Virus record (IMG/VR): IMGVR_UViG_3300023180_000467
Coordinates: 1-21,576 of that record
Length of the DNA stretch: 21,576 bases
Source: a virus
Reading direction: 5' to 3' (one strand)
Made by a program: the position numbers and the translations under genes. The notes beneath the pieces were generated by a model. That model ran no database searches, was not told where the DNA came from, and saw only the letters and a list, made by a program, of their open reading frames with translations. Each line of letters starts with the position of its first letter. Position 1 is the first letter of the stretch. Positions 11,194 through 15,132 of this stretch are shown piece after piece.

Positions 11194-11278
11194 GGGAGCG
11201 TGGCGGAATCGGTAGACGCACCAGATTTAAAATCTGTCGGCCACTGTGGCTGTGAGGGTTCAAGTCCCTCCGCTCCCA
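11194..11278 (+). tRNA. tRNA-Leu, anticodon UAA
   Basis: The 85-nt sequence folds as a class II tRNA. The acceptor stem is GGGAGCG/CGCTCCC with discriminator A, and the D arm has GCGG...AATCGGTAGA. The anticodon loop is TTTAAAA (anticodon TAA), the long variable arm pairs GCCAC with GTGGC, and the T arm is GAGGG-TTCAAGT-CCCTC. The 3' CCA is not encoded and must be added by the host enzyme. There is no intron, unlike the trnL-UAA of many cyanobacteria. The gene ends exactly one base before the stop codon of an opposing gene. Confidence 0.96.
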
Positions 11279-11750: not shown

Positions 11751-12545
11751 TTAATTTTCTTTAAAGTTAACCCAACCGACACCGCTGGCGCCCCCACCAC
11801 GGAACAACCTGTTTTCGATCTCTGAGCGGCTGTAGAGGATCGACTCGCCACTTTCACGCGACTCCGAGGCCCAGAACCCATTCACCAGGTCAAGGCGCCC
11901 GCAGGGGTCATGACAGAGCCAATGCGTGGGGGTGTAGCCGTGGATCAAGACGTAATAGTTGAAGCCATAAGGAGTCTTCTGCGTTCCCCTGTAGGCAACC
12001 TGAAGAACTGCTGGGATGCCTGCATCGATCGCGTCCTGGACTTCTAGTGGTCCAATGCTGCTGCTAAATGCAAACGTCAGTCCCCTTTCAACGAAAGCAT
12101 GACGGTGGTCAGCCCGGAAAGAGCCGTCACCGTGCTTAGATAACATCTCTAAATAATCTTCATAGCTTTCAATATTGCCTATACCTAAGTAGATGAGGAC
12201 CGCCGAAAGAGTGCAGACCAAAGAGTGACGTACGTTATCTCTATCGGCTTCTATGTGCTGGAAGTAAGGGACGTTGGGTAGGTAGCGAAGATCTCCTTCC
12301 TGAACATACGGCGTAACAACTTCTTCATCTTCTGGGCAGCTCCAGTGGCTCTTCTCAATCCACCAGACACCAAGACCTGTTCCAATCTTTAAGAAGCCAT
12401 CGACCTCATAAAGAAAGGTGCAACTTGGGCAGAACCAGCCTTGACTGATGCTGGCTTCACCTTCTGTGACTCCAGGAGCTACCAGTAGGCTCGTATCGCA
12501 AACTGCGCGGATGCTAAATACGTCGCCTACTTTCTTTGGGTTCAC
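11751..12545 (-). CDS. C39-like papain-fold peptidase domain protein
   Basis: GTG start at 12545 in a GTGA overlap with the preceding gene. The N-terminal 85 residues form a domain with GWFCPSCTFLYEVDG (36-50), GTGLGVWWIEKSHWSC and TPYV. After that, YLPNVPYFQ (88-96), VCTLSAVLIYLG (110-121), GIPAVLQVAYRG (176-187) and YYVLIHGYTPTHWLCHDPCG (197-216) match a C39-type cysteine peptidase fold. The expected active-site Cys could be C111, but the usual catalytic His before the hydrophobic strand appears to be a Tyr (Y197 or Y198), and D213 is the likely third residue. Activity is therefore doubtful. Next to a holin-like gene it could act in lysis as a peptide-cutting endolysin or be a virion-associated relative. 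Confidence 0.6.
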   Translation of the reverse strand: MNPKKVGDVFSIRAVCDTSLLVAPGVTEGEASISQGWFCPSCTFLYEVDGFLKIGTGLGVWWIEKSHWSCPEDEEVVTPYVQEGDLRYLPNVPYFQHIEADRDNVRHSLVCTLSAVLIYLGIGNIESYEDYLEMLSKHGDGSFRADHRHAFVERGLTFAFSSSIGPLEVQDAIDAGIPAVLQVAYRGTQKTPYGFNYYVLIHGYTPTHWLCHDPCGRLDLVNGFWASESRESGESILYSRSEIENRLFRGGGASGVGWVNFKEN

Positions 12546-12796
12546 TTAATGATCGGTGGTTCGTCCTTCGGCTCGATGATAGGTGGTTTCTTCTCGGTTT
12601 TCTTGCCGTCTTCCTTGCGGCTGATTCCGTAGACTGCCAGAACAGACGTCACCAAAGACGAGATGAAAGCCGCGTCGATCTTGATCTGCCCCATGTAGCT
12701 GGCAGTCAACATCGCCAAGGCCCAGGAGAGAACACCTGCAGGCACTAAGGTCGCAAGTAAATCCCTAAGAGAAAATTGAGATTCTTCATCTTTCAT
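12542..12796 (-). CDS. Holin-like protein with two membrane segments (84 aa)
   Basis: ATG 12796-12794. A charged N-terminus (MKDEESQFSLRD) is followed by membrane helix one at about 13-33 (LLATLVPAGVLSWALAMLTAS) and helix two at about 42-58 (AAFISSLVTSVLAVYGI). A Lys/Glu/Pro-rich tail (RKEDGKKTEKKPPIIEPKDE) completes it. Size, two helices and highly charged C-terminus are typical of class II phage holins. It overlaps the peptidase-like gene by four bases, an order common in lysis cassettes. Holins are too diverse for certainty; it could be another small membrane protein. Confidence 0.55.
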   Translation of the reverse strand: MKDEESQFSLRDLLATLVPAGVLSWALAMLTASYMGQIKIDAAFISSLVTSVLAVYGISRKEDGKKTEKKPPIIEPKDEPPIIK

Positions 12797-13338: not shown

Positions 13339-13794
13339 ATGGATCGCCTCCATGAAGGCATAGGTCTAGGTTTAGTCCTTGGCATCCTTCATGGAGTGCT
13401 GCAGCCGAGTGCTGCTGTCCCGGTGGTGCCGAACTTCACGCAAGGAAGTCTTACCTCGAAGACAGAGACGACATCTGTCGTTACTGAGGTGATAAATTCT
13501 ATGGATTACAACACAGGATACCAATATTCTGTGACAGGCACTAATATAAAGCACACAGGCGATAGCATCGCGCCAGGTACGACTGCCGGTGCCAGCAATA
13601 CCATCAACGGTGTCACGAGCACATGGACAACACTGGATGGGGCGAACAAACCAAACTGGACGATCGTAGATCAGGGTCAGGGTTTCCAGTTCACGGAGAC
13701 TCTTCGAGGCCCCGGCCTCTCGAATCAAACGATTATCAACAGAACGACGGAAATACGCAGCGTTACAGAAAGTACCTCTATCTTTTCTCAGTAG
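13339..13794 (+). CDS. Exported virion-type protein B (151 aa)
   Basis: ATG 13339 directly follows the stop of the previous gene. The N-terminus has a hydrophobic segment (GIGLGLVLGILHGVL, 7-21) followed by PSAAVP, a likely signal peptide, though the leading MDRLHEG is less basic than normal. The mature part is Thr/Ser-rich, with GYQYSVTGTNI echoing the YSVSGSGI of protein A, then WTIVDQGQGFQFTETLRGPG and a C-terminus VTESTSIFSQ. It probably belongs to the same surface or virion group as A and C. The last 40 nt overlap the coding region of protein C in the -1 frame. Confidence 0.7.
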   Translation: MDRLHEGIGLGLVLGILHGVLQPSAAVPVVPNFTQGSLTSKTETTSVVTEVINSMDYNTGYQYSVTGTNIKHTGDSIAPGTTAGASNTINGVTSTWTTLDGANKPNWTIVDQGQGFQFTETLRGPGLSNQTIINRTTEIRSVTESTSIFSQ

Positions 13795-14624
13795 GTGTAC
13801 TATCTCTACTTAATACTCCTGCGTTGGCTGGGGATGTCGGTGGGGTTAGTGCTACTGCTAATCCTATTGCAAATAGTAGTGGGAGCGTAACAAATCAAGC
13901 TATTCAGGTATTGCAAGGTCCGTACATTACTAATACATATGGCGGAGGAATCCAGTGTCAAGGGCCGACACTAAATGTAACTCCATTCATGACACGCACT
14001 GGGTCTTTCCAGACTCCTTATGAAGATTATTACAACGATCCTGTCTATGACACCAGTGATTTGAATGATGATGGTGTCATCGATAATCCCGGTAAGGTCT
14101 TGTACTACAAACCTGTGAGAACAGGGCAAAAGAGTAACTACAGCTGGAATGGGGGTCTCTCGGCTACCCTTTCTATCCCTCTTGACGGTGGTCTTCAGTC
14201 GAGATGTAAGCGTGCTGTAGAGGCTCAAATTGCACTGCAAGAGCAAACACTTGCTAATCGACGCCTTGATTTTGAGATTGCCAGATTAAAAAATTGCGGT
14301 GAGTTAGCTAAGGCTGGTATCACTTTCCGTCCCGGATCGCAATTTGCAAAAGTATGCGCTGACATTGTGGTGAAGATGCCAGGGGAAACGATTGCTCCTC
14401 ATGTTCATCCTATTTCTTTAAGGCCCGCCTCAACTGACGAAGTGCACGGTTCCGGTCACGCTGAGCAAGACGTCTCTCTTGAAGTGATTCCATTTTCTGG
14501 GGCTTCCCACGCAAGGCAGCAATCTTCTTCATCGTCTTCTTCACTGCAGGCTTCACCAGCTTTAGAAGCAAGTCGGCAAGCGGCTTTGCTAGGAGGGCCG
14601 CTGAGGTCGCAACCACAGCAATAG
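13623..14624 (+). CDS. Exported virion-type protein C; start codon unclear, 3' overlap with opposing gene
   Basis: The frame is open from ATG 13623, but its first 46 residues lie inside gene B and look unnatural. The real N-terminus is probably the signal peptide beginning near RYRKYLYLFSVGVLSLLNTP (13761 on), cleaved after ALA. No ATG, GTG or TTG is available there; ACG at 13755 is the nearest candidate. The mature part has IQVLQGPYITNTYGGGIQCQ, a GLSATLSIPLDGGLQSRCKR block, and a helix LDFEIARLKNCGELAKAGIT, matching what I know of T4-like cyanophage structural proteins. The last ~70 residues, Ser-rich, are antisense to the gene ending at 14410. The natural end may be near HVHPISLRPAS. Protein identity is fairly sure, boundaries are not. 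Confidence 0.65.
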   Translation: MDNTGWGEQTKLDDRRSGSGFPVHGDSSRPRPLESNDYQQNDGNTQRYRKYLYLFSVGVLSLLNTPALAGDVGGVSATANPIANSSGSVTNQAIQVLQGPYITNTYGGGIQCQGPTLNVTPFMTRTGSFQTPYEDYYNDPVYDTSDLNDDGVIDNPGKVLYYKPVRTGQKSNYSWNGGLSATLSIPLDGGLQSRCKRAVEAQIALQEQTLANRRLDFEIARLKNCGELAKAGITFRPGSQFAKVCADIVVKMPGETIAPHVHPISLRPASTDEVHGSGHAEQDVSLEVIPFSGASHARQQSSSSSSSLQASPALEASRQAALLGGPLRSQPQQ

Positions 14625-15132
14625 AAGCTGTCGTCGTAACCTGTTCGGGAGCCGGAAGATAATCAGTCAGCTTTAGTTCTGTTTTTGTTGTCTCTACAGG
14701 TGCAGCCGGCTTCTTTACCTCTATCTGCTCGGGCTTCCTGTCCTCAGGTGGGGTTTCAGATCGTGTTCCTGGTATTGGCGCCGGATTAGGTATCTCTGGA
14801 GTGCTTTCGGGCTTCGGATTGTCCTCTTTATAGGGAGGGACCGGCGCTTCAGTCGTAAGGATTAGGTCCTCTGGGGCGTAGTCCAGGGGCGTAAAAGATG
14901 GTGCGTTTGCATCGCAGTAAGTTCTGACCCCATTTGGGTCATCGGCTGTGATGGTATTTGACTTGCCCGACTGTGGATGAGTCTTTATGCAGCCTGGTAA
15001 AAGCACTACAGGCTTGCTCAGATTTACCGTCACGGGGACCTGAATGGCATTCACCACAGGAGGTGCAACCATCCAGCTATGGATTTGGATGGGTTTAATG
15101 CTGTTGATACCTACATCAGGTATGTCAGCCAT
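14410..15132 (-). CDS. Virion-type protein with Pro-rich linker and membrane segment (240 aa)
   Basis: ATG 15132 overlaps the preceding stop by one base (TAATG). The N-terminal 95 residues (MADIPDVGINSIKPIQIHSW; VTVNLSKPVVLLPGCIKTHP; ITADDPNGVRTYCDA) form a compact domain with two cysteines (C48, C73), of a type I associate with T4-like cyanophage structural proteins. A long Pro/Glu/Lys linker (96-152) leads to a hydrophobic helix at about 168-193 (ASIAVVATSAALLAKPLADL). A very basic end follows (KKTMKKIAALRGK to RALRQLRRALKK). The last 71 codons lie antisense to the end of protein C. It is the last gene of the tail-fibre operon. Confidence 0.75.
   Translation of the reverse strand: MADIPDVGINSIKPIQIHSWMVAPPVVNAIQVPVTVNLSKPVVLLPGCIKTHPQSGKSNTITADDPNGVRTYCDANAPSFTPLDYAPEDLILTTEAPVPPYKEDNPKPESTPEIPNPAPIPGTRSETPPEDRKPEQIEVKKPAAPVETTKTELKLTDYLPAPEQVTTTASIAVVATSAALLAKPLADLLLKLVKPAVKKTMKKIAALRGKPQKMESLQERRLAQRDRNRALRQLRRALKK

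Follow-up and report, generated by a model that had tools for sequence, protein, structure and literature searches.

A convergent gene overlap of variable length in T4-like marine cyanophages, with signs of selection on both frames

Introduction

Convergent overlapping genes lie on opposite strands and share their 3′ ends. Among the short convergent overlaps of prokaryotes the phase termed (123:132) is the commonest, and stop-codon movement is the likely mechanism (PMC2174442). Antisense overlaps with selection in both frames have been little studied, even in viruses (PMC7457138). The passages of PMC7457138 that cite laoB and ano present them as overprinted antisense open reading frames of enteric bacteria, in which constraint on the younger frame tends to be weak.

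The closest described relatives of the two genes treated here, C and D, are T4-GC 235 and T4-GC 234 of marine cyanomyoviruses, which are the same two families in the same tail-to-tail arrangement. In the passages searched, a 2010 paper on these genomes treats the genes as a hypothetical cassette that bears signatures of mobility; neither the overlap nor its age nor any selection acting there is mentioned in them (PMC3037559). A literature search also found no discussion of the C/D overlap.

C and D share with the genes surveyed in PMC2174442 the opposite strands and the overlap at the 3′ end, but differ in that one gene pair occurs with many different overlap lengths, the longest of 275 nt, in one phase and with selection in both frames. 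With laoB and ano, as these are portrayed in the passages citing them, they have antisense coding in common; those are separate antisense genes, whereas here the antisense segment is the C-terminal tail of a conserved protein and has a strongly frozen end. As far as sequences can tell, C and D are convergent overlapping genes, a known class, and the evidence they offer is unusually direct. They represent an unusually clean natural experiment, where sister clades have the same D and different C stops, and the frozen sites move with the end of C.

The overlap and the two proteins

The window, i.e. the whole stretch of 21,576 bases that was analysed, is a virus record from a T4-like marine cyanophage. 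Gene C (13623–14624, plus strand) encodes 333 amino acids and gene D (14410–15132, minus strand) 240. Their tail-to-tail overlap is exactly 215 nt with both stop codons counted in, and neither frame has an internal stop across it. The opposite strands, shared 3′ ends and two open frames are those of a convergent overlap. Codon positions pair as C1–D1, C2–D3 and C3–D2, which is phase (123:132) in the notation of PMC2174442. The TAG stop of C (14622–14624, plus strand) lies over the D codons TCT ATT for Ser-Ile, and the TAG stop of D (14410–14412, minus strand) over the C codons CCT ATT for Pro263-Ile264, where the C core ends. This xCT-A stop geometry is found repeatedly across the family and not only in the window. 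The Lys-rich D codons (V-K-K-T-M-K-K-I) give poly-Ser in the C frame. Both this relation and a 215-nt tail-to-tail coding overlap with two open frames had been claimed in the initial annotation, and the sequence, the open reading frame coordinates and the frames bear them out.

Gene D, the ortholog of T4-GC 234, matches phrog_570 over nearly its full length (residues 4–240, E=1e-63), and 407 cyanophage records carry the family. The protein has a proline-rich N-terminal part, a conserved hydrophobic helix and a basic C-terminal helix. A structure model, usable for the C-terminal helices only, together with the alignment places the conserved hydrophobic helices at model residues 162–207, ASIAVVATSAALLAKPLADLLLKLVKPAVKK (14512–14649, minus strand). 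The predicted basic C-terminal helix, residues 217–239 with the pattern ERRxxQRxRNRAxRxLR (14416–14484, minus strand), has pLDDT values of 85–95 and is present too where D is far from C.

Gene C, the ortholog of T4-GC 235, matches phrog_848 (E=2e-119) and phrog_1755 (E=7e-83) over its core; 443 phage records, from cyanophages, match the family, and C is annotated as ‘similar to gp165’ in S-IOM18 and S-RIM2. A hydrophobic signal-like segment is followed by a highly conserved core and then by a variable Ser/Gln-rich tail. The core runs from about residue 60 to P263 (13800–14411, plus strand), and an alignment of 57 sequences shows 64 invariant columns in it. The tail encoded in the overlap consists of 70 amino acids, residues 264–333 (14412–14621, plus strand), is Ser/Gln-rich and is predicted to be disordered (pLDDT about 40); the AlphaFold model of C as a whole is of low confidence, with a mean pLDDT of 56 and a pTM of 0.29. 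The last 24 codons of the tail, ASPALEASRQAALLGGPLRSQPQQ (14550–14621, plus strand), are those under which the synonymous sites of D are frozen. They include AALLGGPL (14580–14603, plus strand), which resembles the terminal A-x-x-L-G-G/A-P-L/I of C in non-overlapping relatives. Searches of Pfam and NCBIfam gave no match for C or D, and profile searches found no solved-structure relatives of either; both are known but uncharacterised families.

C has a second overlap, of 172 nt and on the same strand (13623–13794, plus strand), with the upstream gene B (13339–13794), a DUF6322 gene; the C frame is open here and the ATG is kept. This ATG at 13623 is the putative start of C. Its position is kept in 206 of 219 loci, the first C-frame ATG being 166–178 nt inside B. 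No common start codon adjoins the signal-like segment, and the candidate starts are the internal ATG, a rare start codon or a frameshift from B. In four distant relatives the B/C overlap is just 4 nt.

The C open reading frame is unannotated in 7 of the 16 GenBank cyanophage records inspected, those of S-T4, S-H9-1, S-H25, S-MS29, S-RSM4, S-H9-2 and S-BM3 (loci L122, L124, L312, L313, L315, L316 and L318), and D is missing in the records of S-8S56 and S-H68. Gene callers probably discard one of the genes on account of the double overlap. Any family count or list of ‘core genes’ that relies on such annotation will miss C, despite its 64 invariant core positions.

Distribution and age of the overlap

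The locus set comprises 307 C genes (231 distinct) from IMG/VR loci, the window and a few GenBank records; the majority are metagenomic contigs. Across these, C and D share between 0 and 275 nt, and the lengths fall into three classes: none, where D is separated or the stops abut at 0–4 nt; 53–125 nt, with 110 the commonest; and 140–275 nt. The phase is the same in 145 of 146 distinct overlaps of at least 20 nt. Overlaps are also found in cultured phages (S-ShM2, 218 nt; S-H9-2, 224 nt; S-T4, 110 nt; S-RIM2, 101 nt), and S-IOM18 has one of 101 nt. In the GenBank record of S-ShM2 (GU071096) the overlap of 218 nt is already present, the two genes being annotated as T4-GC 235 and 234.

C tails of 68–103 amino acids occur in many clades. 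On a tree of C cores the starred clade that holds the window has 10 rows, each with an overlap of 209–215 nt and a tail of 68–70 amino acids, and the sister clade has tails of 45 amino acids. Overlaps in the wider starred clade of 17 around it are all 140–215 nt. The C cores of the window clade have diverged by about 25% in DNA. On the whole tree the long overlap requires at least 10–16 changes, and the position of the C stop shifts among clades to give overlaps of 110, 140 and 215 nt. Nearest relatives, at no more than 16% core divergence, have the same overlap class in 16 of 16 long-overlap pairs.

In one relative (L116) the C tail has only three residues, KIP, with the D stop abutting, which suggests that C is able to exist nearly tailless. 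Eight loci (L123, L133, L134, L142, L147, L053, L051 and L230) have other genes between C and D, mostly of unknown function; the insert in L053 and L051 looks like a gene for what we take to be a 2OG-Fe(II) oxygenase. Recombination is frequent in cyanophages.

Openness of the C frame

With the D protein held fixed and viral codon usage applied, about 3% of synonymous resamplings leave the C frame of the window open across the 215 nt, and the median for all long-overlap loci is 0.3%. In relatives where the genes do not overlap, this phase is the richest in antisense stops, 7.6 per 72 codons vs 1.3 in the emptiest phase, and this load agrees with the prediction from codon usage. An open frame is by itself no proof of coding, because the long overlaps are defined by openness. 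Among D-synonymous changes in 15 long pairs, about nine stop gains are expected.

Selection on the two frames

Counts of the Wei-Zhang type over 39 independent pairs give an omega for D of 0.39 [0.30–0.49] in the overlap. For C, the NN/SN comparison in these pairs gives 1.03 [0.85–1.24] over the whole overlap. Synonymous variation of D codons is halved inside overlaps (odds ratio 0.52, z −7.9); the last codons of D are mildly suppressed even in genomes that have no overlap (odds ratio 0.71), and part of the suppression is therefore owed to location. On the family average, as these comparisons indicate, D dominates the overlap and the C tail is weakly constrained.

The window clade reveals where in the tail constraint resides. 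Among D codons with an invariant amino acid, 70 of 75 vary synonymously beyond the overlap, as against 16 of 30 under tail residues 1–46 of C and 3 of 23 under residues 47–70 (Fisher 2e-13); the clade choices and pair counts behind these comparisons were set after inspection. Nucleotide divergence between subclades follows the same course, at 0.33 for tail residues 1–46, 0.02 for residues 47–70 and 0.40 in the 75 nt past the C stop. Within the clade, 33 of the first 46 tail residues vary. In the sister clade C stops 75 nt earlier, and of the D codons that match the frozen ones of the window clade 19 of 20 are variable (p=4e-8 vs the window clade). This sister clade, with its 140-nt overlap, has a freeze of its own, with 1 of 11 codons variable, under the codons that end its C. 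Synonymous divergence outside the overlap is equal in both clades (0.41 and 0.44).

The same C gene provides a control. In its overlap with B, the synonymous sites of B in the window clade are not suppressed (30/45 vs 51/74), so the freeze at the C/D overlap is no by-product of the method. The constraint is lineage-dependent rather than universal, since the end of C is unfrozen in two other long-overlap clades (15/23 in L222–231 and 13/17 in the L240 group).

The freeze under the C tail in the window clade, and its absence where C ends earlier, argue that both frames are functional. Purifying selection is seen on both frames, and for C at the tail end only, not over the whole tail; in the lineage of the window, these comparisons show strong purifying selection on the last 24 residues of C. 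The initial annotation had offered a real and constrained tail as one of two alternatives, and for the end of the tail the codon counts of both clades agree with it. A comparison of synonymous rates in both frames, which it had proposed as a check, finds constraint on D in the overlap and constraint on C at the last 24 residues, and does not find it over the C tail as a whole.

The terminal motif of C

Genomes with C and D 0.2–2 kb apart retain both ends: a motif such as AEDLGGPIQT closes C, and a basic helix such as ERRNEQRDRNRAIMALRQ closes D. Where the overlap is 110 nt, close relatives encode the C motif and the D helix on the same DNA. In the overlap frame the motif is present in 50 of 68 mid loci and 22 of 58 long loci, where synonymous resampling of D leads one to expect 0.01 and 0.04, respectively; these counts come from related loci that are not independent, and the motif pattern was defined after the fact. 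The window C ends in AALLGGPLRSQPQQ, a near-match to the motif at the new protein end, and its terminal LGGPL sits within the extension and not at the older motif position. Sequences that may be motifs formed near a new end are AALLGGPLRS in the window clade and ALLGGP-I/M in L033, L070, L076 and L282.

These examples permit a tentative and rather doubtful reading, in which A-x-x-L-G-G/A-P-L/I is a functional peptide that formed anew at least twice within sequence dictated by D. The old motif might have decayed as the C stop moved deeper, and a new one might have arisen near the new end, antisense to the conserved hydrophobic helix of D. If this is so, the overlap is a site where the end of one protein was repeatedly rebuilt from the wobble positions of another gene. 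A search for direct-repeat remnants of a duplicated shared segment in genomes with separated genes gave nothing above shuffled controls; a high direct-repeat score in L152 is an artefact of overlapping windows.

Origin of the overlap and alternative explanations

It is very probable that C and D are genuine genes of a T4-like cyanophage cassette which have their 3′ ends on opposite strands of one DNA, with an overlap that is old, slides in length and is selected in both frames. The geometry and phase are read directly from the sequence; age and selection are gauged from comparisons among relatives. Each gene runs on into the other and terminates at an in-frame stop placed over an xCT-A codon pair of its partner, the TAG of D being held by the conserved Pro-Ile of C and the TAG of C by the conserved Ser-Ile of D. 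With movement of the C stop, presumably by ordinary stop-codon loss or gain together with cassette recombination, the length slides between clades from 0 to 275 nt. The basic C-terminal helix of D sets most of the sequence, which the disordered C tail mostly follows. Both tails are probably translated, and that of C may serve as a flexible linker with a short docking motif at its tip. We propose that the overlap persists and slides because a flexible tail tolerates the sequence dictated by the D helix, except at the motif. C may be exported or membrane-directed via its hydrophobic segment, and D may be a membrane-associated protein with a basic helix.

The drift of most tail residues 1–46, the omega of C near one across the entire overlap and the unfrozen C end of some long-overlap clades could also mean that D alone is selected, and that C, having lost an older stop, reads through a frame which happens to be open, with a tail that is translated but meaningless. 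Yet the D synonymous freeze lies under the last 24 C residues, ends at the C stop and is missing in the sister clade that stops earlier; no other phase carries as many antisense stops; some nine stop gains were expected, and overlap class differs in none of the 16 nearest pairs; and the C motif is far commoner than expected. Such read-through noise is improbable in general and largely refuted for the window clade. The other alternative of the initial annotation, in which the window C gained its tail lately by stop loss, so that the tail is new and perhaps adaptive, is the least probable explanation of all those weighed. The differing stop positions of clades would agree with it, as would the placement of LGGPL in the extension, away from the older motif position. 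But close relatives have the tail, with 209–215 nt in the 10 rows and 140–215 nt in the wider 17, among C cores that are some 25% apart; long tails occur in many clades, S-ShM2 and S-H9-2 included; and the tail end is under purifying selection. Comparison of tail lengths among homologs, again a check suggested at the outset, found conserved tails, the outcome named there as refuting a de novo origin, and a recent extension is excluded. An older extension with a single origin is possible, and loss of an older C stop codon is plausible as a step, because the C stop moves among clades.

The frozen block itself might have another cause. Local recombination or gene conversion in the window clade could have homogenised 75 nt and mimicked constraint, which would suit a C/D arrangement that often changes on the tree and a cassette with the signatures of mobility described in passages of PMC3037559. 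The block edges, on the other hand, coincide with the C stop in two clades, the clade with the 140-nt overlap has an independent freeze, and the D amino acids at the block are conserved family-wide, yet their synonymous sites are free where there is no overlap (odds ratio 1.01). Conversion is judged slightly less probable than read-through noise. Lower again we place a nucleotide-level element (RNA structure, terminator or DNA site) in lieu of dual coding. Divergence of 2% in the block is extremely low, and such elements suppress synonymous change as well; folding of the overlap, though, is ordinary on either strand (z 0.21 and 0.43), neither an Rfam match nor a terminator-like site was found in the overlap, and in two sister clades the block coincides with the end of each clade's own C, at D positions that differ between them.

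Neighbouring genes

On the minus strand of the window, positions 11754–12796 encode an endolysin-like protein, which belongs to phrog_10051 and weakly matches C39 peptidases, and a small DUF6450 membrane protein; the two are possibly a lysis pair. A tRNA-Leu gene (anticodon taa) is located near the cassette, at 11194–11278.
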